In this document: piece after piece, positions 1-15,016 of the stretch | How positions within the stretch are numbered: position 1 is the stretch's first letter | Layout of the letters: each line of letters starts with the position of its first letter | Notes under the pieces: model-generated | The model's input: the letters and a program-made list of their open reading frames with translations, nothing else | Databases searched by the model: none | What the model was told of the DNA's origin: nothing | Program-made: the position numbers and the translations under genes | Assembly: GCA_958296195.1 (NCBI GenBank) | Contig: OY282455.1 | Span: 496,001 to 560,000, forward strand | Length of the DNA: 64,000 bases | Reading direction: 5' to 3' | DNA from: an uncultured Pseudomonadales bacterium | Lineage (GTDB): Bacteria; Pseudomonadota; Gammaproteobacteria; Pseudomonadales; Azotimanducaceae

Positions 1-27
1 TGACGCGCTCGTGGTTGGTGGCGGCCA

Positions 28-1596
28 TTATTGCAGTTCCCTCCACTGGTTTATTCTATCTTCCAGACCGTTCACCAGCTCGTGAATCTCATATCGATCT
101 CGGTCCGTTTCCTGTCGGGCCACGATCCTCGCCAGATTCGCCGCATCTCTGTTCAACCTGCGGGCAAACATTTCAACCTTCACCTTGTCGGGATTTCCCT
201 TTTCCAAAGTACCTGCCGTCAACTGCTCAACTTCACGCCTGCGCCCATCAATGTCTTGTGCAGACATCCCCAAAAGGGTTTCGTACTCCTTAGCTCTGTT
301 TGTGAGAGTCTGCCAAATCCACGCCTCGGGTGGCCCTTCACCCGGTAGAAACAGCGGGCGAAAGCTGTGGCCGTAGCCTTCGGCGATGCTGCTGAGATTT
401 TTCTCCCGATCTCGGGAATCACCGTCCAACACGAAAATGAAGCCAAACAATTTGCCGAATTTGCCCAGCGCCCGAATGTGCGCGGGAAACTCGTCCCTGC
501 CTGTATTTCGGCCAATAATGAAGTCATCCGGACGCATCTGCAGCCGCGGCTGCAACATGTCGAGCACACCAAGGAGTACACCCTCAGCCACCTCGTCCTC
601 GCACAATATGGAGAGCTGCTCGCGAGACTGGCCGTAGAGCGCCTTCTGAAAGATGTCCCTGTGTGGCGGCAGCTTTCGCACATCCAAGGTCTGTTCGTCT
701 CGGTCCAGGAAAAACCTGCCCTCCGGCGGCACACTGTCCAGCACCACGGGGCTGTGCGACGCCACGATGACCTGCAGCCTCTGGCGCAAGGCCAAGCGTT
801 GCAACTCCAGCATGAGTTGTTGTTGCGTGTAGGGATGTAGTCCCGTATCGATCTCGTCAATCAAGACAAGTGCATCCTGAAGTTTCGAGATGTCCTTGGA
901 CATCCGCAAAATGGTGCGTTCGCCGGAGGACATGTGGAACTCCGAATAGCGGGCTTCGTCGTTGTCCTTCACCTCTGCGAACAGAAGGTCGCGCCTTTCG
1001 GCGCTGATGACCGAAATCCGTTGGTAACGCTGAGGCAAAATGCGATCGGCAAAATTGAGCAAGTCCGGCGCTAGGGCCTCTGTAAGGTAAGTCTTGCGCA
1101 TAATCTGCAGAGCGCCACGCGCCTCGGCCGGATTGGTGAGATTGGCTAATGTGCGCAGATACACTTCTCGCGCCGGCTGCCGACCACCCTTGTGGCCCAT
1201 GAAACTCCGGTTCCAGGATTTGCCCCGCCGCCATGTCATCGACGCCCGTTGTCCATCATCAATGTAGTAGTAGGCGAACTCCACCCGGCCAATGTCATCT
1301 GACAGCGTTTTGCGCAGCCGGTCTGTGAAGTCCGGGAACAGTATGCTTGGTGTCAGATCCATTGATGAGGGGAGGAGCTGTCGATACGCGCAAGCACAAG
1401 TGAGCAGCACGGTGGTCTTGCCGCAGCCATTCGGCCCGGCCAAAACGGACACGGGGTAGTTGAAAGCTACCCGCAAGTCCTTGATTCCTCGAAAGCTCCT
1501 AATTTGAACTTCTTCAAGGTTGAAGGAGCGATGCGGCTTGCGCGCCTGCAACGCCGTCCACACTCGCTTGAGTTCCCGGTCGATCAAAGAAGGCAT
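28..1596 (-). CDS. OLD-like AAA ATPase with C-terminal TOPRIM-type domain
   Basis: A 522-aa protein with an SMC/RecF-like ATPase followed by a probable TOPRIM nuclease domain. Seen: an N-terminal RSFRGIKDL strand, Walker A GPNGCGKT at about residues 54-61, Walker B LVLIDEIDTGLHP near 240 and an ASHSP switch just after it. Beyond that come CEDEVAEG near 330 and a FVLDGDS acidic pair near 389, which fit the catalytic Glu and DxD of OLD-family TOPRIM domains. Known OLD and GajA-type proteins are ATP-regulated DNA nucleases in phage defence. It is the last visible gene of the minus-strand operon, 58 nt after the zinc-ribbon gene; no strong ribosome-binding site is visible before the ATG. The operon may continue beyond the left edge. 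Confidence 0.8.
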   Translation of the reverse strand: MPSLIDRELKRVWTALQARKPHRSFNLEEVQIRSFRGIKDLRVAFNYPVSVLAGPNGCGKTTVLLTCACAYRQLLPSSMDLTPSILFPDFTDRLRKTLSDDIGRVEFAYYYIDDGQRASMTWRRGKSWNRSFMGHKGGRQPAREVYLRTLANLTNPAEARGALQIMRKTYLTEALAPDLLNFADRILPQRYQRISVISAERRDLLFAEVKDNDEARYSEFHMSSGERTILRMSKDISKLQDALVLIDEIDTGLHPYTQQQLMLELQRLALRQRLQVIVASHSPVVLDSVPPEGRFFLDRDEQTLDVRKLPPHRDIFQKALYGQSREQLSILCEDEVAEGVLLGVLDMLQPRLQMRPDDFIIGRNTGRDEFPAHIRALGKFGKLFGFIFVLDGDSRDREKNLSSIAEGYGHSFRPLFLPGEGPPEAWIWQTLTNRAKEYETLLGMSAQDIDGRRREVEQLTAGTLEKGNPDKVKVEMFARRLNRDAANLARIVARQETDRDRYEIHELVNGLEDRINQWRELQ

Positions 1597-1654
1597 GTCG
1601 GTCTCGCCACCATCGCGCCACGGGCGGGAAAGACACTTTCATTGAGTGGAAATG

Positions 1655-2311
1655 TCATCCGATCACCTCGTAGCTGCTGCACACCCAAAGACACCCAACG
1701 CCCGCTACCGACTGTGAGCGCAAGCCTACCGCAATCGTCACGCCCTTGGCACTGCCGACTTGCGACAGCGCATTCGCCGGCACCCAAGCGGTGTAACTGT
1801 GCAGCTCGTCTCCTTCGGGCGAGGGTGCATGGACGGTGATTTTGCCCCAGCATCCTTTGCCGAGGGGACCGAGGAAGGCGGAGACCATCGTGGTTGCGGC
1901 GGGCAACTTCAACGCCGCTGCCACATCGACCTCCACCGCTTTTTCGCGCAGCACACCGACAATGGGGGCCGAGGCGTTGGCATCCGGTTTGATGGTCTTA
2001 ATGGGGTCTCGCCGTTGCTGACGGTGCCTTGCCCTTGTCACTACAGCAGCGTCTATGGTGCCCGAGGGTGGCCGTCGCACGGTGACGCCGGATGTCAGTT
2101 CGACGTTGATCGTGCCCAACTCGTCCGTCCACCGCGTCAGATTCCGCGTCCACGAGGTTTCGCAATCGTGGAGGGGCCAGGGTTCGCCCAAGGCGTCGAA
2201 GAACACTGCCGAGCCGCAGTTGCAGTGAAAGTAGAACACCCTCTCTCTGCAGTTCCGGCACTTGGTCGGGAACGTAACGGCGTTGCACCACCTGCCGTGG
2301 GTTGCGCTCAT
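1655..2311 (-). CDS. Hypothetical protein with N-terminal zinc-ribbon-like cysteines
   Basis: A 218-aa protein I do not recognise. Near the N-terminus it has KCRNC and FHCNCG, four Cys spaced like a treble-clef zinc ribbon, then DALGEPWPLHDC. The C-terminal half carries a small-domain pattern (KGVTIAVGL, a GPLGKGCWGKI loop) that could be a nucleic-acid-binding fold, which is only a guess. Its ATG overlaps the stop of the DUF4276 gene in an ATGA junction, so it is translationally coupled and probably part of the same complex or pathway. Cysteine-rich small partners are common beside OLD-type and methylase-type defence ATPases, but its function is unknown. Confidence 0.7.
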   Translation of the reverse strand: MSATHGRWCNAVTFPTKCRNCRERVFYFHCNCGSAVFFDALGEPWPLHDCETSWTRNLTRWTDELGTINVELTSGVTVRRPPSGTIDAAVVTRARHRQQRRDPIKTIKPDANASAPIVGVLREKAVEVDVAAALKLPAATTMVSAFLGPLGKGCWGKITVHAPSPEGDELHSYTAWVPANALSQVGSAKGVTIAVGLRSQSVAGVGCLWVCSSYEVIG

Positions 2312-2883
2312 GCGCAGGCCTTCGGTGCGTTTTCTGAGGGCAGGCGTTCAACGCCCGCGAGGAAGATTTGGTAGCTGCGGGAGCGGTTTTCTCGGGAGAG
2401 ATGCCGGCCTAGGCTTCTTGCGCCGGATCGCTTCTGGAATTCCGGTATGAGCGCTGACAAGGCTTCCGCTGGCTGAATCACGCTGTCCGGGTCGCGGAAT
2501 CGGCTTTTGCGCAATTCGCCGCGTATTTGCCTAGCTGCGCCCGGGAAAGCTCGCGTCAGCGCTTCGGCATCGCCGATGTACCAGGCTTCGAGTTCCCGGC
2601 AGACCACGCGGATGAAGGTGTCGGCGCGTCCACTCTGCTCGCACAACGTCGCCAACTTAGCCTTGATCGCTCGGCAGTCGCCGCTGTCCTGATCGCGCAT
2701 CACCATGAAGCGCACACCGGGCTCCCGCCAAGCTCGGAGCTTCTTGGGGATGCTCTTTTCCAGATCCGCCTTCCCCCTGTGAGGAACGCATTGAAACGAT
2801 AGATTAGGGAATAGCTGCGGCAACAGCTCATCAAGCAAGTTTGCCATAGAGGGTTCTTCGACCAGGAAAACCAGCTTAGTCAC
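2308..2883 (-). CDS. DUF4276 family protein
   Basis: About 191 aa. The opening strand TKLVFLVEEPSMANLLDELLP, the later FMVMRDQDSGDC and RELEAWYIGD match the DUF4276 family, a compact TOPRIM-like fold usually encoded next to an AAA ATPase of the AAA_21 type. The acidic residues in VEEPS and RDQDSGD are placed like a TOPRIM metal site. The start is set at the GTG at 2881-2883, which shares a base with the TAG stop of the preceding ATPase gene (TAGTG). A TTG 36 nt upstream is less likely. The ATPase/DUF4276 pair resembles split OLD systems, and this operon has both a split and a fused version. Confidence 0.75.
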   Translation of the reverse strand: MTKLVFLVEEPSMANLLDELLPQLFPNLSFQCVPHRGKADLEKSIPKKLRAWREPGVRFMVMRDQDSGDCRAIKAKLATLCEQSGRADTFIRVVCRELEAWYIGDAEALTRAFPGAARQIRGELRKSRFRDPDSVIQPAEALSALIPEFQKRSGARSLGRHLSRENRSRSYQIFLAGVERLPSENAPKACA

Positions 2884-4046
2884 TACGGGTCCACGCCCTT
2901 GAAAAGGCGCTGCATCCACAGTGCGCCGGGCAGATCGCCCTCCTCGGCCAATCGCTTTAGAAGCGGGTCTTCACTCGCCCGGTGGACGTGCGTGAACCCA
3001 TCCTCCTTTTCCAGCCAGAAGATCTCGTCCAGATTCGCAGCGTTAAGGAACTCGGGCGAATGAGTGGCAACCAACACCTGCCCGCCACGCCGGGCGTAGT
3101 CCCGAAACTCCTCCACCAAATCGCCCAGCAAGGCAGGATAAAGCTGATTTTCCGGTTCCTCCACGGCAACCAGCGGATGCGGCTTGGGATCGTGCAGCAG
3201 CAACAGGTAGGCGAACATCTTGATGGTGCCGTCCGAAACGTGCCGGGCGATGAACGGATCCTTGAAGCTGCCGTCCCGAAAGCGCAGCACCAAGCGGCCA
3301 TCTTCGGTGACCTTAGCCTCCACCGCATCGACTCCGGGAACGCGGGCGCGCATGGCCTCTAGGACGCGGCGGAACTGCTGGGGATGGTTTTCGTGCAGGT
3401 ATTGCGCCACTTGGGCCACGTTTTCGCCCAATGTGGAAAGATGTTCGGCATAGCCGGCCTCGGGACTTTCCCGTGCTTTATTGATGTGGAAGTTGGAGAT
3501 GTGCCAGTTTTCGATCAGTGACCGGAATTCGGAAATTAGGGGGAAGTCCTTGAGGTGGCCAAGAGCCTTTATCGCCAAAATGCTTGGGTCATCTAATTTG
3601 TAAGCGGCTTCTTCTACCTTGGAATCACCTTCAAAGTCGATGATTTCTCTAGTGACCACGCCATCGCCACGAAAGAACTGCAAAAGCCGTTCACTATCAT
3701 CCTCAAGATCTGTAGTGATGCACTCCCTGCGTACCACCACCCGGCTGGCCTCCTGCTCGATCTGCAAACTGTAGAAGAGAAATTGCTCATCTCCTCCGCG
3801 GTAGCCAATGATTATTTCAATGGGGCCGCTCTGACCGCGGCTCACCAATTCGCGAAATCCACCACGTTTGGCGGTGGCGGAGTGGACATCGCCAGCAAGT
3901 GCGTCCTTAAGAAAGGTGAACACGTCAAATAGCGTGGACTTCCCCGTGCCATTGGCTCCGGTCACTATGGATAGTGGGGACAGACCATCGAACTCCGAAT
4001 TCAGGAATACCCGGTAGTTGCTAATCTCTAGATACTCAATGGACAT
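2883..4046 (-). CDS. AAA family ATPase (AAA_21 type)
   Basis: A 387-aa ABC/SMC-like ATPase. It shows LEISNYRVF at the N-terminus, Walker A GANGTGKST at about 30-38, Walker B VAVEEPENQLYP near 292 and VATHSPEF after it. There is no obvious nuclease domain, so any catalytic activity probably comes from the coupled DUF4276 protein downstream. The ATG is preceded by AAGGAGC with good spacing and lies 12 nt after the methylase stop. The family occurs in abortive-infection and restriction loci as the sensor or motor of two-gene OLD-like systems. Cytoplasmic. Confidence 0.85.
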   Translation of the reverse strand: MSIEYLEISNYRVFLNSEFDGLSPLSIVTGANGTGKSTLFDVFTFLKDALAGDVHSATAKRGGFRELVSRGQSGPIEIIIGYRGGDEQFLFYSLQIEQEASRVVVRRECITTDLEDDSERLLQFFRGDGVVTREIIDFEGDSKVEEAAYKLDDPSILAIKALGHLKDFPLISEFRSLIENWHISNFHINKARESPEAGYAEHLSTLGENVAQVAQYLHENHPQQFRRVLEAMRARVPGVDAVEAKVTEDGRLVLRFRDGSFKDPFIARHVSDGTIKMFAYLLLLHDPKPHPLVAVEEPENQLYPALLGDLVEEFRDYARRGGQVLVATHSPEFLNAANLDEIFWLEKEDGFTHVHRASEDPLLKRLAEEGDLPGALWMQRLFKGVDP

Positions 4047-4058
4047 TGCTAAAGCTCC

Positions 4059-6947
4059 TTATACACCGTCAAGCGGCGCAAGCAGTTCCGTTTGCTCCGA
4101 TCTATCCTCGCGAGCCAGTCGAGCGATCTCCGGCCAGCTTTGCACCAGCGCGTTGTACCACAGGGCTTCGCGGGAGCGCTTGGTGCGTTCGGCGATGGCA
4201 TAGAGGCGGTAGGCGAGTTCGCGGGCGGTTTGCGCCACGCTGCCGAGTTTGCGCACTAGGGCTGCCGCGGCCTGCTCGCCGCCAGCATCATGGACGCGGA
4301 TCAGGTGATGCACGGTGAGCCAAGCCGACAGCCGTGCCGCAGCCTGCGGATCCCAATCCTGCGCTAAGGCTAGGGGGATAAGCAGCCGCACCTTGCCGCC
4401 CTTCGACTGGAGGATGCCAATGGTCTTCAGAAAGCCAACGCTGGTGTTTTTCGCCTTGGAGAGCGTCTCGGCAGCGCCGTAGTCGCCATCCTCAAAGCCG
4501 TGCTGCTCAAACCAGGCCAGCGCCCAGCGGGTGTCCGCGTCGAAATCGCCTTCTTGTGCGGTGAGCACCTCGTCGAGCGTCTCGTTGATAAACGCCAGCG
4601 CCTCCCGGACAGTGACCGGGTTGCCGGAGGCATCCACTACCTTCGCGTAGCGGGTGTACACAGCCATGCCGGGGCCGATGGCGGCCTGGGCTAAGTCCAC
4701 CGGGGCAATGCTGCCGGATTGCAGGTGAGCGAGGGAGGCGGGGAGTTCGGACTTGAGGGTGTTGATGAATTGGCGGCGCGTGGCGAGTGGCGCATCTTCG
4801 GGGCGCTTGCGGCAAACTAAAACGATGCTGGACGCGAGAGCATTGGCGTCCTTGCCGATCATCCTGTTGCTGAGTTCCGTGCGCATCGGCCAAGTGCCTG
4901 TAATGGCGAAGCCAGCGTGGATTACGGCATCCAAGAAAGTCTCCCAGCCAGTGCTGGTGATTCCAGTATCGCCCCTCCTTTCGGACTGCTTGAAGGCATA
5001 GTAGATGGTGACGGGGAAGGCGGGGTGAGTCTGCTCAGCAAGTCGTGATATAGCCAGTTCCATGCCATCAAGGAAGAATATCTCTGCTTGCTCCCTATTT
5101 TTATGTCGGTAGGTCGTGGCAACAAGTTCCTCAACTTTAGGCACGGCAAGAGTAGTAAAGAGATCAGGCAATGATGTACCTAATGAACGACGTAACCAGA
5201 CATAAAAGAAATCTGAAAGGTCAGCATAGCTAATATTGTCGTAATATGGTGGGTCCGTCGAAACGAGCTTGTTTTTACTAATCTCTTGATTAGTTGCATC
5301 AGCTTGGCGACTAACCCCTAGGGAACGCTGGTCTGCTAACCCAATGCCCCCAACGCTCTCAGCGGTCCACTCTACGGCCCCTAGGAAACTTCCTGTTCCA
5401 CTTAGTGTGGTATTTAGCTCAGCATAATCCCATGTCATAGGGAGGCTCTGCCGAGAAAAAGTATTCCGCGTGGAATCACGCTCTGTAAACCAGGTACATA
5501 TCGTCGAACCCCGATCCGCAAACTTGGAAATAGCAAAAGCCAAATAAATTGAAACCGCCTCTGGGTACCTATCGGTTCCACGACACATATCATCCAAGTG
5601 AGCGTTACCTATATCTCGTCCGATTTGATAGCGAGCTGTTCCAATCAAGTCCGAGAATATGGTCAATGCGGTCAATTGGCGAGGTGAAAAAATAGTGCCA
5701 AACGTATTCATACCATACAAAGGAAGTTGATCTCGACACTTGCCAAGAAGTTCCTGCTCAGGGCACCACTCGGGCGTTACGCTCTTTGCCACTTGCTCTT
5801 GTTCCGATGATGGCGGCAGATAGATACGCTGCCGGTTTCCCTCTGCAACCACGGCCATCAAACGTGAACCTAGACGATTAGCTTGCCCCTCAGCCTTGAT
5901 ATGCCCACCGGAAATCGGCATACCCGACATCAAGCAGCGGAAGTTCGAACCTCGACCTAGTTTTGTTCCGCTCTTCACCGCGTCATAGTCATCCGGTCTA
6001 TGAGCATGAACAACAAACCGGTAGTTTCTCTCTTCCAAAACGGGCTCAACATAAGCCTCCTTGCCCTTCTTCGTGGACAACATAAACGTCGTCGCCAGCG
6101 GCACATCCACATCCCGAAACGCTGGGTTCGGGCTTTTCACCGTCCGCGCCCACAACCAAGCGATTACGGTCAGTTTGCGCCCCACATAGGGTTGCAAGTC
6201 GGGCCGCTCCTTGGCCATTTCCGCCGTCACTTCGATCTTCGGATACAGATGCCCGATGCGCTTCTCAGCCTCGTCGCGCATCCACTTGCCGTAGTAGCGC
6301 ACATCCTCCGCCAGCCCTTGCGCCCCTTTCCACTGACACTGCGCCTCCAACGGGTTGTCCTTGGCTTTGGCCCGCCACTCCGGGTTCACCGGCGGCATTC
6401 CGGCGAACTTCGGCGGAATCTCGATCATCGCCTTGTTGATGAGCACCGCCACCGGGTTGAGGTCCGAAGCGTGCGCCTCCAACCCTAGCCGCTGCGCCTC
6501 CAACGGCAGTGTGCCCCCGCCGGCAAACGGGTCGTGAAACGCCGGCAGCCGCTCCGGGTCGAACAGTTCCGCCGCCCGCGGATGGTCTTGGTTCTCCGCG
6601 CAGGTGCGTCGCCAACTTATGCGGATTTCCTCCCGCGCCTCATCCAAAAGTTCCTCGTTGGTGGTGTTCTCCCACCGCACCATTTCCTCGATCAGCCGGA
6701 ACAGCCGTTGGCGCTCCTTCTCCTGCTCCACCTCGGTAGGAAAAAGTTCCGGCCACGAGGAAGGATCGTCCACCATCTGCGCAAAGATTACCGCCCGCGC
6801 CGCCGCCAACGGCCGCCGCGCCCACCACAGATGCAACGTACTCGGATGACCATGCCGAATGGACTTCTCCCGCGCCGACGCCTTGTTGATGGCGTCGAGC
6901 GGCAGGGCAACCTCAATGAGCTTCTTGCGAGGCTTGCTGCTAGTCAT
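4059..6947 (-). CDS. DUF1156 DNA adenine methylase (defence-associated)
   Basis: About 962 aa. The N-terminal KKLIEVALPLDAIN and the HGHPSTLHLWWARRPLAAARA signature are typical of DUF1156 (COG1743) proteins. The AdoMet motif DPFAGGGTLPLEA lies near residue 145 and the catalytic DPPYYDNISY near 562, so it is probably an N6-adenine methyltransferase. Such proteins accompany large helicases in DISARM-like and related antiphage loci, where methylation marks self DNA. The start is the ATG at 6945-6947, overlapping the PIN stop (ATGA); an in-frame start further upstream would run into the PIN gene. It is the likely modification subunit of this operon. Confidence 0.85.
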   Translation of the reverse strand: MTSSKPRKKLIEVALPLDAINKASAREKSIRHGHPSTLHLWWARRPLAAARAVIFAQMVDDPSSWPELFPTEVEQEKERQRLFRLIEEMVRWENTTNEELLDEAREEIRISWRRTCAENQDHPRAAELFDPERLPAFHDPFAGGGTLPLEAQRLGLEAHASDLNPVAVLINKAMIEIPPKFAGMPPVNPEWRAKAKDNPLEAQCQWKGAQGLAEDVRYYGKWMRDEAEKRIGHLYPKIEVTAEMAKERPDLQPYVGRKLTVIAWLWARTVKSPNPAFRDVDVPLATTFMLSTKKGKEAYVEPVLEERNYRFVVHAHRPDDYDAVKSGTKLGRGSNFRCLMSGMPISGGHIKAEGQANRLGSRLMAVVAEGNRQRIYLPPSSEQEQVAKSVTPEWCPEQELLGKCRDQLPLYGMNTFGTIFSPRQLTALTIFSDLIGTARYQIGRDIGNAHLDDMCRGTDRYPEAVSIYLAFAISKFADRGSTICTWFTERDSTRNTFSRQSLPMTWDYAELNTTLSGTGSFLGAVEWTAESVGGIGLADQRSLGVSRQADATNQEISKNKLVSTDPPYYDNISYADLSDFFYVWLRRSLGTSLPDLFTTLAVPKVEELVATTYRHKNREQAEIFFLDGMELAISRLAEQTHPAFPVTIYYAFKQSERRGDTGITSTGWETFLDAVIHAGFAITGTWPMRTELSNRMIGKDANALASSIVLVCRKRPEDAPLATRRQFINTLKSELPASLAHLQSGSIAPVDLAQAAIGPGMAVYTRYAKVVDASGNPVTVREALAFINETLDEVLTAQEGDFDADTRWALAWFEQHGFEDGDYGAAETLSKAKNTSVGFLKTIGILQSKGGKVRLLIPLALAQDWDPQAAARLSAWLTVHHLIRVHDAGGEQAAAALVRKLGSVAQTARELAYRLYAIAERTKRSREALWYNALVQSWPEIARLAREDRSEQTELLAPLDGV

Positions 6948-7426
6948 GGCGCCTCGCTGAACAGGTCGGGCTGGTCTAAGGCTCCCGGCCGGCATATCCT
7001 TAATGAGGTCGCCGGAATCTTTTGGTCCAAGTTCAGCAGCTTTTCGTCAGCGGTCTCCAACATATCGCAGTTGAGGTCTATCGCTACGGCTAGATGAATC
7101 GCGTCTCTCGGATGGATACTGTGCTCCCAGCAGAGTCGCTGAGCATCGTTTGATATTTTCCGATCGATCATCCTCCACTTGATGTAGTCATTCTCAAAGA
7201 AGGTGCGTACCTTGTCCCGCAACTTCTCAGCAAGCGGCATCGGAGACCCCTTCGGTCGGACAACCTCCACCTGAACCAGTGGCGATACGCAAACTTCCGT
7301 GCGTGACCGACTCGCCTCCTCTAGGATGCGTTCGCATGCCTGCGCATCATCCTCGTCGTTGAGCACGGCAAGAAAGCATGTCGAATCCCAATACCGCCGG
7401 ACATTGATGTTGCGTGACGCCACCAT
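6944..7426 (-). CDS. PIN domain protein
   Basis: 160 aa. The PIN-fold acidic residues can be followed: YWDSTCFLAVLNDED at the N-terminus, LVQVEV, HPRDAIHLAVAI and LETADEKLLNLD. PIN domains are metal-dependent RNases, usually VapC toxins, but here no small antitoxin gene sits beside it. Instead it is locked between an unknown gene and the DUF1156 methylase by TGATG and ATGA overlaps. This suggests a nuclease subunit of the defence operon rather than a free toxin. I place the start at the ATG at 7424-7426; a TTG one codon earlier is possible. Confidence 0.8.
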   Translation of the reverse strand: MVASRNINVRRYWDSTCFLAVLNDEDDAQACERILEEASRSRTEVCVSPLVQVEVVRPKGSPMPLAEKLRDKVRTFFENDYIKWRMIDRKISNDAQRLCWEHSIHPRDAIHLAVAIDLNCDMLETADEKLLNLDQKIPATSLRICRPGALDQPDLFSEAP

Positions 7427-8217
7427 CAATCATCCCTCACGAATCTGGCCCACTCTTTAATATCAACTTTGTACTCGGAGAACAGGCCACGGATGTCTCT
7501 CGCTTGCGGCAGGGGATCGGTTTGAAATGCTTGAACTGCATCGACCTTGATCGAGGTCGCGTCTCCCTGCGCGTTGTAGCTCACTTCGCCGCTCACGGAA
7601 ACACGTTTGCCGAAGTGCTTAATGGCTAGGTCGAGAGCGTCTCGGTCGCACTTGCACACCACCCGGCGGCTAGTGATGGCGTCGTAGATGTTGAACGCGA
7701 CAGAGTCGTGGATCGTCACCGCTTCAAGCGTACCTTCCAGAGAACCAAAGGCGACGAATGCGGTGCCAATAAGCTCGTCCACATGCGCCACAAGACGCTT
7801 CGAGACCGCTACTCGACGACGTGCCTTTCCGCTCCCACCGAAGATCGCCAAGCCGTTGGCGTCACCTTTTGCTGCATTCACAAGAGACTTCGCCCGTCTG
7901 AGCGCCTGGTCGGTGAAGTGGGGAGGACGCTGGGCCGTGTCTTCAACGACAGCCAATCCCTCCAAAGCAGACGCGATCACAGCACTGCCACCGTTTGCCG
8001 CCACGGAGGAATCGGCATACGGTCTCATGACGAGATTCGCGCTGCCCGTGTGCAGATCAGCAATAAGCCATTCCAAGCCTTGCTGACCCGTCACAGAAGT
8101 TTCGAGTTCCTTAAGCAAGTCCGTAAGCTTGTCCGCTACCGCAATGAACATGCGCACCGGAACAGCCTCTCCGGAGAGGTTGAATCCGATTTGTTTTTCG
8201 TCCTGTAGCTGATCCAT
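7426..8217 (-). CDS. Conserved hypothetical protein paired with PIN gene
   Basis: 263 aa (268 if the ATG at 8230-8232 is used). The ATG at 8215-8217 is preferred because a GGAG lies about 9 nt upstream. No family is recognised. The N-terminal part (VPVRMFIAVADKLTDLLKELE) looks helical, and the C-terminal part (GKRVSVSGEVSYNAQGD) resembles a small beta-barrel domain. It has no catalytic motif, signal peptide or membrane segment. It overlaps the PIN gene (TGATG) and is probably its partner or inhibitor, or a structural subunit of the defence operon. This is inference from gene order only. Confidence 0.7.
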   Translation of the reverse strand: MDQLQDEKQIGFNLSGEAVPVRMFIAVADKLTDLLKELETSVTGQQGLEWLIADLHTGSANLVMRPYADSSVAANGGSAVIASALEGLAVVEDTAQRPPHFTDQALRRAKSLVNAAKGDANGLAIFGGSGKARRRVAVSKRLVAHVDELIGTAFVAFGSLEGTLEAVTIHDSVAFNIYDAITSRRVVCKCDRDALDLAIKHFGKRVSVSGEVSYNAQGDATSIKVDAVQAFQTDPLPQARDIRGLFSEYKVDIKEWARFVRDD

Positions 8218-8297
8218 AGCGTCGAACTCCATGCTGGCGACTCAGAATCCCGGGTGCAACCCTGCCGGGGACTCGGTTCTGACCGCTTTCGGGGGCC

Positions 8298-8927
8298 TCA
8301 TGGGGCCGTTTGCCGCCTGGACAGGTCCAGTTCCGCCGGGTTCCGAGACATTGCGAATTCGTGCCCGGGCCTAGATGGTTCCATGAAGGTAATGGCCTCG
8401 TAGAAGTCACCCAAGGACACGAAAACGCCGTTGGCCTCTGCCCATCGACGCATGCGCTGGTTGCAGGCGTGCGACCAAGAGAGTATCTCCACCCGCCAGT
8501 CGCGCTTGCGCATCCTCTCCAAGGTGCTGTGAAAGCCAGTGCCTTCGTAATAGCCGGCACCATCCCCGGTCAGCACCACTGCGATGCCGGGGTCGCCGTT
8601 GAAATCCAAGGCATCCTCCAGCATTCGCAATTGCAGAAGCCGATCTGGAACTTCCTGCTCTCCCCTGGAAGAGTCACCCCGATCAAAGAGCTTGACCTTT
8701 ACCCCCATCGCCTCCATCCGGTTCCATAGCTGGCGCATTTCCGGCGGTACAGAGCCGACCGCCAAGGCTCTCTTCACCGGGCGGTCGGCGTGGGCAAGGC
8801 GGAGCAGGTTCCCAAACTCAATGCACACCCGATAGCGGGCATCCGGCCCTTCATCCCGCTCCACCGCCAGCCGTTGCGCTTCGTGGAAGATGTTGGAGTT
8901 GTCCCAGTAAACAAAAACGCTTTCCAT
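8298..8927 (-). CDS. NYN domain (PIN-like) nuclease
   Basis: About 209 aa. FVYWDNSNIFHEAQ at the N-terminus and VVLTGDGAGYYEG in the middle are the conserved Asp-bearing motifs of NYN/LabA-type PIN-like RNases, and RRWAEANGVFVSLGDFYEAI ends the domain. The ATG at 8925-8927 is chosen because AAGGTG lies 8 nt upstream and the domain starts immediately. It sits 154 nt after the helicase and about 80 nt before the next gene, on the same strand. NYN proteins cleave RNA. With the PIN gene downstream it gives this operon two candidate RNase effectors. Confidence 0.8.
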   Translation of the reverse strand: MESVFVYWDNSNIFHEAQRLAVERDEGPDARYRVCIEFGNLLRLAHADRPVKRALAVGSVPPEMRQLWNRMEAMGVKVKLFDRGDSSRGEQEVPDRLLQLRMLEDALDFNGDPGIAVVLTGDGAGYYEGTGFHSTLERMRKRDWRVEILSWSHACNQRMRRWAEANGVFVSLGDFYEAITFMEPSRPGHEFAMSRNPAELDLSRRQTAP

Positions 8928-9081
8928 AGCCCTGCACCTTGTTCGGCTCCGAGGCCCGATGTGGAGGTTGCGTGGGGATTCTAACTTAGAGAGTCGGCTA
9001 ACACCCAAGATTCACCATAGGCGGTGGTCGCTTGCCTCTAACCAATTGAAAGCACGACTCAATAGCACCCCGTAAATCCGC

Positions 9082-12000
9082 CTATCCCGGCCGCTCCCCC
9101 CGCGCCCACAACTCCTCCAGCTTGTAGTTCACGCTCACCGCCCCAAAGTCCGGCTCCCGCCCGAAGGGTTCCCGTACATAGCGCACTTCGTACCGCTCGT
9201 CCTCCCCGAAACGCACGATGGCGAGGATGAAGTCCTCCGGTTTGTTTAGGGCCGTCAGCACCTCGTTGCGGGTCACGGTGATGCTATCCGCGCCGGCCAC
9301 GCGGCCTTTCACCTCGATGAAGCGCAGCTTGCCGGTGTTGGGGACGCGGCTTTCGATGTCGTAGCCGAGTTTTTCCAACTCGCGGTCGGTGGGCTGGAAG
9401 CCGAGTTCGCGTTCCAGCGCCATGACGATGGCCCGCGCCCGGGCTGCGGAGGCTTGGGTGTCCGCTACCCGTGAAGGCGGGGCGCTGCCCGTCATGGCTG
9501 CGATCAATCCGGCCGGCACCACCACCAAGCCGCCGACCACGGTGGGCGGCAACGCGGAAATCTGCGCTTCCCGGTCCAGTTGCGCCATGCGCTGCTGCAA
9601 GCGCTGCTGCAAGCGCTCCTGCAGGTCGTCGGCGCGGCGGCGGGCTTCGGTGGAGTTAAGGCGGGCGCCGGCCTTGCCGGCTGCCTCTTGCAGCTTCAGC
9701 TCGCTGGCGCGGTGGTCCCAGTGGGCAATTTCCTTGGTCAGCCGCGCCTTGACAGCGGCGCGGGTCTTGTCAATCCAGGCCAAGCGCCGCTGCCGCACTT
9801 CCTTGATGTGCTCCGGCACGATCTGGGCGATGGCTTCGCGCCGCGCCGCTTCCTCCAGTTCGCGGGCGATCCAAGCGCATTCCGAGCCGGCGAGGATGTC
9901 GCTTGCCAAAGGTTCGCCCTCCGCAAGGGGGCGATAGTCCAGATAGGGCGCATGATGCAGATGGCGGCAGGCGCCTTGGGCGTCCATCTCCACATAGAGC
10001 ATGCGCTGCGAGAGGGTGCGCTCGTTGTCTCGGATGGTGTGCTCCAAGGTGAACAACACACGGGGTTCGGTGCCGGGGTCGCAGTCGTCCACCAGCACGG
10101 TGCCGCGTTGCAGCAGGTCTCGGTTGCGCTCCAGCGTCAAGTCCAGCACCGCGTCGAGCAGCGGATGGCCGGGGCAGACGAACGCCGCCGACGGCTTGGC
10201 GGCTTGGGTGAGCAAAGTCTTCTCGAAGGCGATGCGTTCGTAGCGGCGCAGCACGGATTCGCTGGTTCCGATCTGTCGGTCACGGTTGCGCACCGCGGCG
10301 GGCACATGGGTGATCTCGTAGCGGCGCGGCTCCCGCTGACGCGCCGCGCCGCCGAGTTGGCGGAAGGCTTCCAAGAAGAAAGATTCGACGTAATGCGGCT
10401 GCAGCCGTCGCGCTTCGGCCCGCTCCATGTCCTCGCGCACCCGGGCGACTTGGGCGGAATCCATCGCATCCTGCGCCAGGGCGCGTTCCTCGATCAGGGT
10501 CTGCAAATGGCGGCGGTCCACCGCTTCGCTGACGGCTTGCGACAGCCGCGCCCGCACTTCTGGGCGGTCGCCATAGCGGATGGCTTCGACCAGCAGGTCG
10601 CGCAAGGGGCGGCCCTCGAATTGCAGCTTGCCCAGCACATCGAACACCTGCCCGCCGAGGGCAAAGCGGGCCTGCTCCAGCTTGTCGAGCAGTGTGCGGT
10701 AAACATCGCCTTCGCGGGTTTCCGCCGCCATCAGGTTCCATAGATGGCAGACCTCCGTTTGGCCGATGCGGTGGATGCGCCCGAAACGCTGCTCCAAGCG
10801 GTTGGGGTTCCACGGCAGGTCGTAGTTCACCATCAGGTGGGCGCGCTGCAGGTTGATGCCTTCGCCGGCGGCGTCCGTAGCCAGCAGCACCTGCGCTTCG
10901 GGGTCGTGCAGGAAGGTTTCCTGGGACTTGCGGCGTTCCTCCCGGCCCATGCCGCCGTGAATGACGGCTACCGCGTTTGGACGGCCCAGCAAAGTGCCGA
11001 TGCGCCGCTGCAGTTCGTGCAAGGTGTCCCGGTGCTCCGTGAACACCACCAGCTTTTGGCGCGGCGAGGGCCGGGGCGGGGAGATGGGGCCGCTGCCGCG
11101 GTAATGCGCTCGCTCCTGCGCCACTGCGCTTGCTAGGCGGCTGGGCGCGAAAATCATGGCCAGCAGGTTGGAGAGTTCCTGCCATTTGGCGTCCTCGCCG
11201 CTGTTCCGCAGGTCCGCGGCCAGGGCTTCCAAGCGCCGCAGCGAGTCGATCTCCGCTTGCAGTTCGGCGATGCTGCCGGCGGCGGTGGCTTGGTCGAGCA
11301 CGGCGGCCTCCGCCGCCTCCACTTCATCGAAAGGCGCTTCGTCCAAGTCCTCCACATCCTCGGCATCCAGGGTGGGGCCATCGAGAAGTGCGCCGCGCTG
11401 CAGCAGGGACGCCTCCCGCAGTCGGCTTTCAAGGCGCTCTCGCCGCCGGCGCAACGACTGGTGGATGGCTGCCGGCGAGGACGCCAAGCGCCGCTGCAGA
11501 ATGGTCAGCGCGAAACCGACGGCACCGGCCCGCTTGTTGTTGTGCAGGGCTTCGGCGCGGTTGAACTCCTCCCGCACATAGTCCGTGACGGCCTTGTAGA
11601 GACGCGCCTCGGCGGCGGAGAGCTTATAGGGCACGGAGTGGGCGACGCGCTCCGGGAACAGCGGGCGGCCGTTGAACTTCAGCAGGTTCTCCTTGGACCT
11701 GCGGCGCATCAGGTCGGACACATCCACCTGATGTACGCCGTCGCGAAAGCGTCCCTCGAAACGGTCGCCGTCCAAGAGGGCGAGGAAGAGCTGGAAGTCC
11801 TCCTCCTTGCCGTTGTGCGGCGTGGCGGTCATCAGCAGGAAGTGGCGGGTGAGGCCGGAGAGCAGTTGGCCCAAGCGGTAGCGCTTGGTGTACTTGACCT
11901 CGCCACCGAAGAAGGTTGCGGACATCTTGTGCGCTTCGTCGCACACCACCAAGTCATAGCGGCAGTCCGGCGCAGCAAGCTGTGCTTGCAGGTCTTCGTT

Positions 12001-12630
12001 GCGGGCCAGTTTGTCCAGCCGGGCAATGGCTAGGTCGTTTTCCAGGAACCAATTGCCGGTGCGGGCCGTTTGCAGTTGGTCGTTGGTGAGAATGCTGAAC
12101 GGCAGTTGAAAGCGGCGATGCAGTTCGTCCTGCCATTGCTCCGCCAAGCTGCCGGGGCACACGACCAGGCAGCGCTGCAGGTCGCCGCGCACGACCAGTT
12201 CCTTCATCAGCAGCCCGGCCATGATGGTCTTGCCGGCACCGGGATCGTCCGCCAACAGGAAGCGCAACGGCTGGCGCGGCAGCATGGCCTCGTAAACGGC
12301 GGTGATCTGGTGCGGCAGCGGCTCCACCAAGGAGGTGTGGACGGCTAGTAGCGGGTCAAATAGGTGGGCAAGGCGAATTCGGTGGGCCTCGGCAACCAGC
12401 CGGTACTTGGCGCCGTCTCCGTCGAAACTCCACGGACGGCCTTGTGCGACCACTTCGAGACGAGCTTCGTCATCGCGGTAGAGAATTTCCTCAGCAACGC
12501 CGCCGGATGGCGACCGGTAGATGAGTGTCAGCGCATCCGAACCATGCCATTGCACGTTGACCACGGCGACCGGCGCGTCCGGGTACAGGCCGCGCACGGA
12601 AGTGTTCGGCGCTAGGTCTTCAAGTTTCAA
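9082..12630 (-). CDS. SNF2-like helicase with C-terminal DUF3883 (DrmD-like)
   Basis: 1182 aa, the size of DISARM DrmD helicases. Seen: an N-terminal LEDLAPNTSVRGLYPDAPV lead, Walker A ADDPGAGKT near 130, a CDEAH box near 235, and the SNF2 C-terminal signature with PWNPNRLEQRFGRIHRIGQ near 625. At about 1085-1165 there is a DUF3883 domain (LGYDIESR, FIEVKGR). ATP-driven translocation on DNA is expected. The only start that keeps the conserved N-terminus is the TTG at 12628-12630, inside the last codons of the Rieske gene. It heads the defence operon; how it is transcribed is unclear because no separate promoter is obvious. Confidence 0.85.
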   Translation of the reverse strand: MKLEDLAPNTSVRGLYPDAPVAVVNVQWHGSDALTLIYRSPSGGVAEEILYRDDEARLEVVAQGRPWSFDGDGAKYRLVAEAHRIRLAHLFDPLLAVHTSLVEPLPHQITAVYEAMLPRQPLRFLLADDPGAGKTIMAGLLMKELVVRGDLQRCLVVCPGSLAEQWQDELHRRFQLPFSILTNDQLQTARTGNWFLENDLAIARLDKLARNEDLQAQLAAPDCRYDLVVCDEAHKMSATFFGGEVKYTKRYRLGQLLSGLTRHFLLMTATPHNGKEEDFQLFLALLDGDRFEGRFRDGVHQVDVSDLMRRRSKENLLKFNGRPLFPERVAHSVPYKLSAAEARLYKAVTDYVREEFNRAEALHNNKRAGAVGFALTILQRRLASSPAAIHQSLRRRRERLESRLREASLLQRGALLDGPTLDAEDVEDLDEAPFDEVEAAEAAVLDQATAAGSIAELQAEIDSLRRLEALAADLRNSGEDAKWQELSNLLAMIFAPSRLASAVAQERAHYRGSGPISPPRPSPRQKLVVFTEHRDTLHELQRRIGTLLGRPNAVAVIHGGMGREERRKSQETFLHDPEAQVLLATDAAGEGINLQRAHLMVNYDLPWNPNRLEQRFGRIHRIGQTEVCHLWNLMAAETREGDVYRTLLDKLEQARFALGGQVFDVLGKLQFEGRPLRDLLVEAIRYGDRPEVRARLSQAVSEAVDRRHLQTLIEERALAQDAMDSAQVARVREDMERAEARRLQPHYVESFFLEAFRQLGGAARQREPRRYEITHVPAAVRNRDRQIGTSESVLRRYERIAFEKTLLTQAAKPSAAFVCPGHPLLDAVLDLTLERNRDLLQRGTVLVDDCDPGTEPRVLFTLEHTIRDNERTLSQRMLYVEMDAQGACRHLHHAPYLDYRPLAEGEPLASDILAGSECAWIARELEEAARREAIAQIVPEHIKEVRQRRLAWIDKTRAAVKARLTKEIAHWDHRASELKLQEAAGKAGARLNSTEARRRADDLQERLQQRLQQRMAQLDREAQISALPPTVVGGLVVVPAGLIAAMTGSAPPSRVADTQASAARARAIVMALERELGFQPTDRELEKLGYDIESRVPNTGKLRFIEVKGRVAGADSITVTRNEVLTALNKPEDFILAIVRFGEDERYEVRYVREPFGREPDFGAVSVNYKLEELWARGERPG

Positions 12631-13879
12631 GCGGGGCCATCGCCGTCAGGTACCAATCGACGAAGTCCAGGCAGGCGCTCTCGTGTTCTGGGTGGTAGGG
12701 GCCGGGCTCGAAGAAGCGGGAATTCACCCCCGCGCTGTTGCGCTCAATGATGTGCTTGTCCTCCACCGAGGTGCGGTCCCATAGCCAGATGAGGGCATCG
12801 CGGTCGTAGTCGCGGCCGGCCTCGGCGTCGCCACGCACGAACCAGACCACCTCCATGTCGGTGCTGGCGGGGCTGCGCGGCGTGAAGCGGTACAGGACGC
12901 AGTGGTCCGGGTAGTTCAGCATGAAGGCCAGGGGGCCGAACTGAAAGTCCCCGGCGGCGCCGTCATAGCCCTTGAAGTCGCCCATCAGGGGCGCCACTGG
13001 CCTGCCCCCCTTGCTGCCGGTCTGAAAACCATCGTAGAGGGCGTAGCGGCTGGTGTAGATGCAGGCGCCAAAGGCGGGCGCGGTGCCGTAGGCTTGGTAG
13101 AGGTCCAGCGCAATGCCCTGCACTCCCGTCTGAGCCTCCGCCCGTTCGTGCATGGCGGCGTTGATGCGCTCCACTTTTTCGCCTAGCTCCGCCAAGGTGT
13201 GCAGCTTGGCGTAGGCGCGGTGGGCGGTGGCGCAGTGGTAGCACTCCAGGTAGTTTTCCAACACCAGCTTCCAGTTGGCCTCCACGGGATACACTTGGCG
13301 GTGGGCGATCTTGGCGGTGGGCAGCCCGTAGGGGCGCAGGGCTGGCGCGATGCGGTTCAAAACGCTGTGGAAATCTGCGGCGGCGGAGTCCGCGTTGATG
13401 AATATCAGGCCCTCGAAAACCAAGCATTGCGCCCTTTTCAGGCCGTAGTCCGCCGGGTCGAAGCCCGGCTTGGCGGCCATGTCCCGGGCCGCCTTGAGGC
13501 TGCCGTCCAAGTTGTAAACCCAGCCGTGGTAGGGGCAGGCGAAGGTCTTGCGGTTGCCTTGCGCCGCCTCGCACAGGCGCGAGCCGCGGTGCCGGCAGAC
13601 ATTCATCAGGGCATGGACGGCGCCATCGCCGGCGCGGACCAGGATGATGGAGTCCTCCCCCAAGTCGAACAGGAAGTAGTCGCCGGGGTTGGGCAACTGA
13701 CTGACATGGCCGGCATAGAGCCAGCTCCTGTAGAGAATTTCGTCCAGTTCCTTGCGATACACCAATTGGGAGCGATAAAAATAGGCGTCCATCGCAAAGC
13801 CCGGCCTAGCCCGCTGCACCGCCACCTGCTCCGCCAGCCGCTGCAAGGAGTCCTCAGGCTCGGTTGCAATGCTCGTCAT
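12620..13879 (-). CDS. Rieske aromatic ring-hydroxylating-type oxygenase, alpha subunit
   Basis: 419 aa. The Rieske [2Fe-2S] site is clear: NVCRHRGSRLC followed by FACPYHGW (C-x-H ... C-x2-H). The mononuclear iron site shows as ENYLECYHCATAHR. Family members hydroxylate aromatics or demethylate/cleave quaternary amines such as carnitine and glycine betaine. The GcvT-like and COG1233 genes a few kb away on the same strand favour methylated-amine use, but the substrate is not determined. The reductase partner is not in the window. The gene's 3' end overlaps the helicase start by 11 nt, so a catabolic gene and a defence gene are fused head to tail. Confidence 0.9.
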   Translation of the reverse strand: MTSIATEPEDSLQRLAEQVAVQRARPGFAMDAYFYRSQLVYRKELDEILYRSWLYAGHVSQLPNPGDYFLFDLGEDSIILVRAGDGAVHALMNVCRHRGSRLCEAAQGNRKTFACPYHGWVYNLDGSLKAARDMAAKPGFDPADYGLKRAQCLVFEGLIFINADSAAADFHSVLNRIAPALRPYGLPTAKIAHRQVYPVEANWKLVLENYLECYHCATAHRAYAKLHTLAELGEKVERINAAMHERAEAQTGVQGIALDLYQAYGTAPAFGACIYTSRYALYDGFQTGSKGGRPVAPLMGDFKGYDGAAGDFQFGPLAFMLNYPDHCVLYRFTPRSPASTDMEVVWFVRGDAEAGRDYDRDALIWLWDRTSVEDKHIIERNSAGVNSRFFEPGPYHPEHESACLDFVDWYLTAMAPLET

Positions 13880-13965: not shown

Positions 13966-14508
13966 CTACCCCCAATACCAAGCAGTGAAGGCAAGGGTGT
14001 GAACTTGCTGGGCGGCGCTGCGGGCGGAGGCGGGAAACCAAGCCAACTCCCGGCCGGCACCGTCCCGAGATTGTGCTGAACGGGCGCGAACTCCCCTTAG
14101 GCCAGCAGCCTTGGCCCTCCCTCCAATAGGCTGGCATAGAGTGTGCGGGATCAAGACGCCGTCATTCGCGTAGGGAAAAGTTGGGGGCAGCCCAGCGGCG
14201 CGAACGCCCTCCGGCGTGTGCATGTCGGCTAAGGTCTGGGACCTCGGCAGGGTGCAGCCAACCAAAATTGGGCCACTGTCATCGCGCAGATCCTCTGGTT
14301 CATAAGGCCACTCGGCGATGAACGTGCGGAGGTTCAAACGAGCCGTGACTTGGTCCTCATTCAGGTAGAGAGCAGGAAAGCTGCGCGACGGGTTCCAGCG
14401 TCCGCCCTGCTCCTGCGCAAACCTAGGGTCCAAGGGGTTCGCCCAATCCCGCCTAGCGACGCGCCACCAAACATGGGCGTTGGGAAGCCTCTCCTGAATG
14501 AGTGTCAC
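13966..14508 (-). CDS. RES domain toxin
   Basis: 180 aa. HVWWRVAR at the N-terminus, GGRWNPSRSFPALYLNED with its conserved Arg/Tyr/Glu, and the C-terminal block fit the RES family. These toxins degrade NAD+ (NAD phosphorylase or glycohydrolase activity) and stop growth. The GTG start at 14506-14508 lies 2 nt after the antitoxin stop, so the pair is coupled with antitoxin first, the usual order for Xre-RES modules. Length is normal and no frame break is visible. Confidence 0.85.
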   Translation of the reverse strand: MTLIQERLPNAHVWWRVARRDWANPLDPRFAQEQGGRWNPSRSFPALYLNEDQVTARLNLRTFIAEWPYEPEDLRDDSGPILVGCTLPRSQTLADMHTPEGVRAAGLPPTFPYANDGVLIPHTLCQPIGGRAKAAGLRGVRARSAQSRDGAGRELAWFPASARSAAQQVHTLAFTAWYWG

Positions 14509-14510
14509 GG

Positions 14511-14960
14511 TCAGCGATGCGCCCGCTCAAACTGAAACATGTCGCGGCAGACAGCCAGCACCGTCGAGGTGTCGCCCTGCGCCAGCAAGTCCAGCAGGGA
14601 AACGCCGCCGCGGGACAGGACTGGCCTACGGACGACGGCCGGTATGCGGTCGCGCTTCAAGTAACGCACCAACAGGTCAGTGGCGGCGGCCAAATCTGCA
14701 AAAGCGGCGGTCCGGTCGGCTGGCGCACCCTGCCTCAGCCACTTGCCAACCGCTTGGCGACTGACGCCAAGCAGCCGCGCCGCCTCCGCTTGGCTGAGCC
14801 CCCAAGCCTGCAACACTTGCGCTAGGGATTCTCCAGCTCGCCGCCGGCCGAGGCTCTCGGCAAAGACGTCAAGCCAAGCTACCTTGTGCCTGTGCGCCAT
14901 GTAAACTTGCGCCGCAGCCTCCTCAGGGCCAAGCCCCTGCAACAATGCTTCGCTTCTCAA
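14511..14960 (-). CDS. Xre/MbcA-type antitoxin of RES pair
   Basis: 149 aa. A helix-turn-helix (LSQAEAARLLGVSRQAVGKWL) lies mid-protein and a C-terminal toxin-binding tail (IPAVVRRPVLSRGGVSLLDLLAQG) matches antitoxins of RES toxins. I place the start at the TTG at 14958-14960, because AGGAGGT sits 6-7 nt before it; a TTG at 14997-14999 would add 13 residues without a good ribosome-binding site. Only about 60 nt separate it from the target repeat of the first IS, so the IS may have replaced or modified its promoter. Expected to repress its own operon. Confidence 0.8.
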   Translation of the reverse strand: MRSEALLQGLGPEEAAAQVYMAHRHKVAWLDVFAESLGRRRAGESLAQVLQAWGLSQAEAARLLGVSRQAVGKWLRQGAPADRTAAFADLAAATDLLVRYLKRDRIPAVVRRPVLSRGGVSLLDLLAQGDTSTVLAVCRDMFQFERAHR

Positions 14961-15016
14961 CGAGGCGACCTCCTGTGCTTTTCGGCAATCATCTGTCAAC
15001 CGCTACTCAATGTCAA

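Follow-up and report, generated by a model that had tools for sequence, protein, structure and literature searches.

The window analysed here, a stretch of 64,000 nucleotides from an uncultured Pseudomonadales bacterium, comprises bases 496001-560000 of one 4.3-Mb contig, and its left end carries a minus-strand operon built on the three-gene defence system Hma. All nine open reading frames (ORFs) that a sequence-only reading had placed in this operon were found at 28-12630. Of its domain calls, those of an SNF2 helicase with NOV_C (which we take to be DUF3883 under an older name), NYN, PIN, DUF1156, AAA and DUF4276 are backed by Pfam, and those of an OLD-like and a zinc-ribbon protein are consistent with motifs. 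The PADLOC and Pfam scores of the operon genes lie far beyond chance level. HmaA (9082..12630) is a Swi2/Snf2 helicase that scores 1620 bits against PADLOC model PDLC00659 over residues 1-1180, has Pfam SNF2, Helicase_C and NOV_C domains, and retains intact-looking GAGKT, DEAH and C-terminal PD-(D/E)XK-like FIEVKGR motifs. HmaB (4059..6947) is a DUF1156 DNA methylase (PADLOC PDLC00660, 1448 bits; Pfam DUF1156, 2.7e-32) with a DPPY motif of the amino-methyltransferase type at residue 565. The operon was suspected to run off the left edge of the window, and it does so: among the families proposed for a look to the left (DUF1998, DUF499 or DUF3780), a DUF499 ATPase gene is present at G000:C1:492708-496028, with its first bases at 1..28 and the rest at G000:C1:492708-496000. 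This gene encodes HmaC, 1112 amino acids (aa) as listed, which scores 1121 bits against the PADLOC HmaC model over residues 172-1111 (L002:12708-16046), contains the Pfam domains HEPN_Swt1 (3.4e-35) and DUF499 (3.2e-30), and has intact-looking GGGKT and RNKWAH motifs. The models of HmaA, HmaB and HmaC are covered almost entirely, in the order A-B-C on a single strand, and for HmaA and HmaB the Hma models score at least four times as high as the best model from any other system. Because HmaC joins HmaA and HmaB, the known three-gene system is complete, and because the DUF499 ATPase gene adjoins the OLD-like gene on the left, the operon holds ten genes in all, nine of them within the window. The backbone is therefore a complete Hma system, alias Type-1 DUF499-centred BREX-related (BR), and is ordinary: it is neither DISARM nor new.

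Both gaps between the core genes are filled with cargo, seven genes in all and every one on the minus strand. Between HmaA and HmaB lie a putative NYN-domain nuclease of 209 aa (8298..8927; Pfam NYN, 1.3e-7), which forms a stand-alone cargo gene; a 268-aa protein of an undescribed family (7426..8232), a putative antitoxin or regulator; and its partner, a PIN-domain protein and putative RNase toxin (6944..7428; Pfam PIN, 3e-13). For none of these three was a PADLOC or NCBIfam family found at E <= 0.1. The gap between HmaB and HmaC begins with an AAA_21 ATPase of the OLD/ABC type (2883..4046; PADLOC PDLC04144, 486 bits, residues 1-387) and a DUF4276 protein (2308..2883; PADLOC PDLC04143, 190 bits; Pfam DUF4276, 2.5e-9) with TOPRIM-like motifs (E..DxD). 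These adjacent genes are the HEC-01 pair, sited inside Hma. PARIS (AriA and AriB) was considered for them and rejected, as the ATPase scores 486 bits against HEC-01 and 104 bits against AriA, and no AriB stands among the 13 matches listed for the DUF4276 protein. They are followed by a zinc-ribbon-like protein of 218 aa (1655..2311) with an N-terminal CxxC...CxC motif and no family match at E <= 0.01 in Pfam, PADLOC or NCBIfam, and by an OLD-like ABC ATPase (28..1596) with C-terminal TOPRIM-like motifs (CEDE, LDGD).

The genes had been described as following each other with little or no space, which applies to most junctions. The 268-aa gene runs into the PIN gene at TGATG, the PIN gene into HmaB at ATGA, the ATPase gene into DUF4276 at TAGTG and DUF4276 into the zinc ribbon at ATGA, and 12 bp separate HmaB from the ATPase gene. 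The stop codon of the OLD-like gene and the likely ATG start of HmaC overlap within TAATG. Tight spacing does not extend to the junctions of HmaA with NYN (154 bp), NYN with the 268-aa gene (65 bp) and the zinc ribbon with the OLD-like gene (58 bp). Judged from junctions and alignments, the likely starts of HmaB, NYN and DUF4276 were corrected to 6947, 8927 and 2883, respectively. A transfer-messenger RNA reported at 2027-2503 on the plus strand lies antisense to the zinc-ribbon and DUF4276 genes and was taken as spurious.

The Hma system (HmaA/HmaB/HmaC) has been published in PMC8565338 and described again as Type-1 DUF499-centred BR in PMC12839542. As in Type-1 BR, an Swt1-HEPN domain is fused to DUF499 and accompanied by a DUF1156 methylase and a helicase with a C-terminal PD-(D/E)XK-like motif, and PMC12839542 also describes OLD/TOPRIM and PIN effectors as embedded in BR systems. 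The present locus differs in its NYN gene, a term with 0 occurrences in the main text of PMC12839542, and in a 268-aa PIN partner that has no family name here. Compared with the Hma of PMC8565338, the locus has cargo in both gaps between core genes. That paper gives HmaB as an m5C methylase, whereas the DPPY motif found in this locus points to an amino (adenine) methylase, in agreement with PMC12839542. Embedding itself is known for Hma: Hma-embedded candidates (HEC) with antiviral activity are reported (PMC12111858, PMC12988326), Septu is embedded in Hma (PMC12255303), and HEC-04, an ABC ATPase fused to TOPRIM, is reported as active on T4 and T5 (PMC12111858, citing a preprint by Payne et al. 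2024). The AAA/DUF4276 pair and the single ATPase-TOPRIM gene between Hma genes resemble HEC-01 and HEC-04 in their siting, although the OLD-like protein is only distantly similar to the PADLOC HEC-04 model (137 bits; residues 26-459, model positions 26-432 of 494).

Comparison with other Hma loci allowed us to separate the backbone from its cargo. HmaB occurs in 16 of 398 genomes of the same phylum (E <= 1e-100) and in 16 of 50 NYN-bearing genomes (E <= 1e-50), two of which (G666 and G678) have copies only 32-33% identical. The comparison set consisted of 30 other Hma loci, 16 from the phylum search and 14 from the NYN-bearing genomes, many of them cut by contig ends. HmaA is followed by HmaB on one strand in 13 of the 30, with more than 300 bp between them in 11 of these 13, and HmaB is followed by HmaC on one strand in 18, with more than 300 bp between them in 12; in five, HmaC lies upstream of HmaB. 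As most A-B and B-C gaps exceed 300 bp, room for cargo is usual. Ten embedded proteins were scanned, and nine match AAA, SMC_N, DUF3226, SDH protease, PDDEXK_9 or DUF4145 (one has no match). The NYN, 268-aa, PIN and OLD-like proteins were found in 0/30 loci at E <= 1e-6, and profile searches likewise gave no 268-aa or PIN match. Partial cargo was seen three times: the zinc ribbon in one locus (L184), the HEC-01 pair in one (L178) and a 25% relative of the AAA protein in one (L189). In L178 the core genes are 64-71% identical to those described here and are accompanied by HEC-01 and none of the remaining cargo. In L184 a 52% relative of the zinc ribbon sits between HmaB and HmaC, followed by an ATPase/PDDEXK_9 gene in place of OLD. 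HmaB is also present in 54 plasmid records, four of which were opened: those of Meiothermus and Rhodococcus carry a bare A-B-C operon, that of Rhizobium carries AAA and retron-type HNH cargo, and that of Gloeocapsa carries DUF29, AAA and DUF4435. The comparison thus shows that Hma works as a carrier with swapped cargo.

The NYN gene is widely shared. Of 142 relatives in genome_contigs, the best 80 (L060-L139) are covered here and have 57-84% protein identity over almost the full length. Within flanks of up to 10 kb (many shorter), none of the 80 loci has HmaA or HmaB beside NYN, and one has an HmaC-like gene, a weak match at 27%. No neighbor recurs: apart from NYN itself and antisense ORFs, no cluster lies at a median distance below 300 bp in more than five loci. 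A 31% relative of the zinc ribbon, itself weak, stands directly downstream of NYN in one of the 80 (L100:10688-11056). The genome that holds the Hma operon described here has a second NYN copy of 56% identity (L035:9015-9692, at 376 kb of G000:C1). Approximately 0.5 kb downstream of this copy lies the gene of a Type ISP restriction-modification enzyme of 1580 aa, and the gene after it matches GMT-wHTH below the cut-off; the nearest tree relatives of the second NYN copy are in Chloroflexota. A general link between NYN and restriction systems was rejected, as the 80 loci yield one weak ISP, one weak HmaC and three weak AAA relatives.

By record title, the 80 NYN loci span 13 named phyla (one title is unplaced) and occupy unrelated genomic sites. 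In a quick tree of 79 rows (77 loci, the window copy and the second copy of the same genome), phylum labels require 30 changes, compared with a minimum of 12 and with 45.2 for shuffled labels. The phyla are therefore partly clustered yet well mixed, to which binning errors or paralogues may contribute. A sample of 252 genomes from the class of the source organism contained NYN matches in just four, the source genome and three others (one of these, G183, at 69%), and viral contigs gave one relative (L203, 46%). Many NYN-bearing genomes carry isolate names of the type used in sponge studies, so that their presumed sponge origin is read from isolate and species names and not from source fields; two record titles name sponge symbionts, Synechococcus spongiarum and Entotheonella. 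The spread of NYN looks like transfer within sponge communities. This picture fits the enrichment of restriction-modification and toxin-antitoxin genes in sponge metagenome-assembled genomes reported in PMC8163846. A literature search on NYN domains in sponge symbionts listed a single paper, which its title places among work on polymorphic toxins.

The 268-aa and PIN genes recur as a pair outside Hma. The 268-aa protein has no PADLOC or NCBIfam match, and its only Pfam match, DUF5818 at 0.023, is below that family's cut-off; a single-sequence structure model reached a pLDDT of 35. In the PIN protein, the acidic residues D15, E55, D109 and D128 are invariant in a four-sequence alignment (A5). 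Three relatives outside the NYN-bearing set (L039, L140 and L141) have a PIN gene directly downstream of the 268-aa gene, with Pfam confirmation of PIN for L039 only. Because the window, L039, L140 and L141 supplied the profiles for both families, and L140 and L141 the transposase profile, these loci match by construction. The 268-aa family occurs at 11 further places in eight of the 50 NYN-bearing genomes, and at ten of these a match to the PIN profile comes next on the same strand (eight at E <1e-7 and two weak ones, L196 at 1.3e-5 and L201 at 2.6e-5). L202 has no PIN match, the PIN partner is partial in L198 and in two pieces in L192, and in L194, L195, L199 and L200 the match to the 268-aa profile is confined to the C-terminal part. 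Elsewhere in 202 loci (2.40 Mb, overlaps included) no PIN-profile match was found at E <= 0.01, and none of the 12 members of the 268-aa family examined has a Pfam match at E <= 0.01.

No Hma genes were found within the 6-14 kb of sequence around the 11 further places, and the ORFs listed around the pair in L140 and L141 show none, though no search aimed at Hma was made there. Transposase genes or pieces, which we presume to be IS1595-like, stand beside the pair in all three of L039, L140 and L141 and at 0/11 further places; in those three loci the pair resembles a passenger carried by these elements. A single-protein search of genome_contigs with the 268-aa protein gave 45 pattern-matching stretches, of which 0 were confirmed, and plasmids gave no member of the family for three queries. 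Two candidate relatives were discarded as chance matches missed by the profile: the one in G152 falls in an ankyrin-like ORF and came out at E 0.009 when rechecked, and that in G124 has several stops and gave nothing at E 0.1 on recheck. Among the titles listed by literature searches on IS1595 with PIN or toxin-antitoxin genes, none describes the pair. Two coupled genes with a downstream PIN protein bearing four conserved acids recall VapBC-type modules. In those modules the upstream gene encodes a small DNA-binding antitoxin, whereas the upstream partner here is approximately 250-320 aa where complete and has no known domain. We consider the two genes an undescribed pair resembling a toxin-antitoxin module.

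The OLD-like protein also has a life apart from Hma. Relatives of 43-62% identity are present in 13 of the 50 NYN-bearing genomes (E <= 1e-30), away from Hma. HmaB is matched in six of these 13. The match in G666 reaches just 32% identity and sits on another contig than OLD; in G672, G687, G688, G704 and G705, a distance of hundreds of kb or more separates the OLD genes from the best HmaB match. Methylase relatives of 33-34% identity are present at approximately 159 kb from an OLD gene in G688 and at 23 kb in G705. OLD and the zinc ribbon were rejected as a single module, as the former occurs in 13 and the latter in two of the 50 genomes (E <= 1e-8), with no genome shared.

Gene content, gene order, homology and the repeated occurrence of cargo units elsewhere are observed, and a complete Hma backbone carrying inserted, separable cargo very probably describes the locus. 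The biochemistry and the anti-phage activity that follow are predictions. In the published model, HmaB would mark self DNA by adenine-type methylation, HmaC would sense unmarked incoming DNA and assemble the complex, and HmaA would translocate and cut with its C-terminal nuclease; through its HEPN domain, HmaC may cleave RNA as a last resort. By this model the Hma locus would protect against phages. The cargo in the A-B gap (the stand-alone NYN nuclease and the 268-aa/PIN pair) and in the B-C gap (the HEC-01 pair, the zinc ribbon and the HEC-04-like protein) is probably transcribed with the operon and would supply separate, abortive-type backup effectors that the core does not need, with the PIN toxin perhaps held in check by its 268-aa partner. 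That the undescribed cargo acts in defence is somewhat favored. Several points weigh against this account. Many of the 30 loci are incomplete, so that absence of cargo means absence from the fetched sequence, and NYN was sought in them by single sequence only. The 268-aa, NYN, PIN and zinc-ribbon proteins match nothing in the defence library, which makes their defence role a matter of guilt by embedding, and the HEC-04 match is distant, with no cut-off given. The 154- and 65-bp gaps around NYN could hold a promoter of its own, and shared transcription is thus a presumption.

There are other possible explanations for this operon. The sequence-only reading had likened the methylase and DrmD-like helicase to DISARM, noting that DrmA, DrmB and DrmC were not visible, and its view of a defence operon outside DISARM is borne out. 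HmaA does match DrmD models (395 bits in PADLOC, 353 bits in NCBIfam), a distant second to its 1620 bits as HmaA; the DrmA match is a helicase cross-match of HmaA itself (214 bits), DrmB and DrmC are absent from the matches listed for the operon proteins, and the gene on the left is HmaC. A DISARM variant, with which the operon shares a methylase and a DrmD-related SNF2 helicase, thus has a close to negligible probability. The same reading had also suggested that the set may be a distinct system, in which NYN, the 268-aa protein, PIN, DUF4276, the zinc ribbon and OLD would be obligate beside the helicase and methylase. The tight, partly overlapping junctions over most of the operon speak for such a ten-gene system, as do the intact motifs of its two RNase-like and its two TOPRIM-like proteins. 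Against it, the core is Hma, bare A-B-C operons exist, and NYN, the 268-aa/PIN pair and OLD all occur without Hma and are missing from the other 30 Hma loci (many cut by contig ends), in which the zinc ribbon, the HEC-01 pair and a 25% AAA relative were each met once. Since the genes never recur together in this sample, the novelty claim fails, and an obligate ten-gene system appears very unlikely.

A further hypothesis holds that the undescribed cargo, namely NYN and the 268-aa/PIN pair, consists of selfish passengers (toxin-antitoxin and nuclease genes) that mobile elements have brought in and that play no part in defence. It is compatible with the Hma backbone and therefore competes only with the defence-effector part of our account. 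The IS1595-like genes or pieces beside the pair in 3/3 relatives outside the NYN-bearing set, together with the scatter of NYN across unrelated sites, could be attributed to such passengers. The 11 further places without an IS1595-like gene point the other way, as do the lack of any transposase-like ORF noticed in the operon's ORF listing, core genes left intact by the cargo, and the antiviral activity reported for HEC-type cargo in PMC12111858 and PMC12988326. We regard selfish cargo as possible, if rather unlikely. Returning to inserted defence cargo, one tentative and rather doubtful extension is that the 268-aa/PIN pair is a new toxin-antitoxin-like defence module, mobile in some genomes and here recruited as a backup effector of Hma, and that NYN, a stand-alone gene directed against phages, circulates among sponge symbionts belonging to 13 phyla.

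The operon is thus settled as a known backbone, and Hma as a carrier of exchangeable cargo. What is new is confined to cargo families, the 268-aa/PIN pair and the widely shared NYN nuclease; the cargo set is unusual and the backbone ordinary. Two leads follow, an unnamed family paired with PIN nucleases and an NYN nuclease from bacteria that appear to be associated with sponges. Phage protection by either would lengthen the list of embedded defences, and if the spread of NYN reflects real transfer, the gene would mark exchange within one kind of host-associated community.

The surroundings of the operon offer some additional observations. The sequence left of HmaC holds four tRNA genes (Thr, Tyr, Gly and Thr), together with genes read by eye as tuf and the rpoB operon. 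The end of the Hma operon is approximately 95 bp from the tRNA-Thr(tgt) of this cluster (L002:12538-12708), a possible insertion site. On the right the same-strand run goes on, with a Rieske oxygenase alpha-subunit gene (12620-13879) overlapping the start of HmaA by 11 bp; a 32% relative lies a few genes upstream of HmaA in L178 (16228-17544). Upstream of the operon and the Rieske gene, on the same strand, RES-domain and Xre-like helix-turn-helix genes 2 bp apart (13966-14999) are likely a toxin-antitoxin pair. Beyond them, a plus-strand gene (15120-16301) encodes a 393-aa protein with helix-turn-helix domains, presumably an IS481-type transposase, and by eye a similar gene is present at L140:11619-12818.

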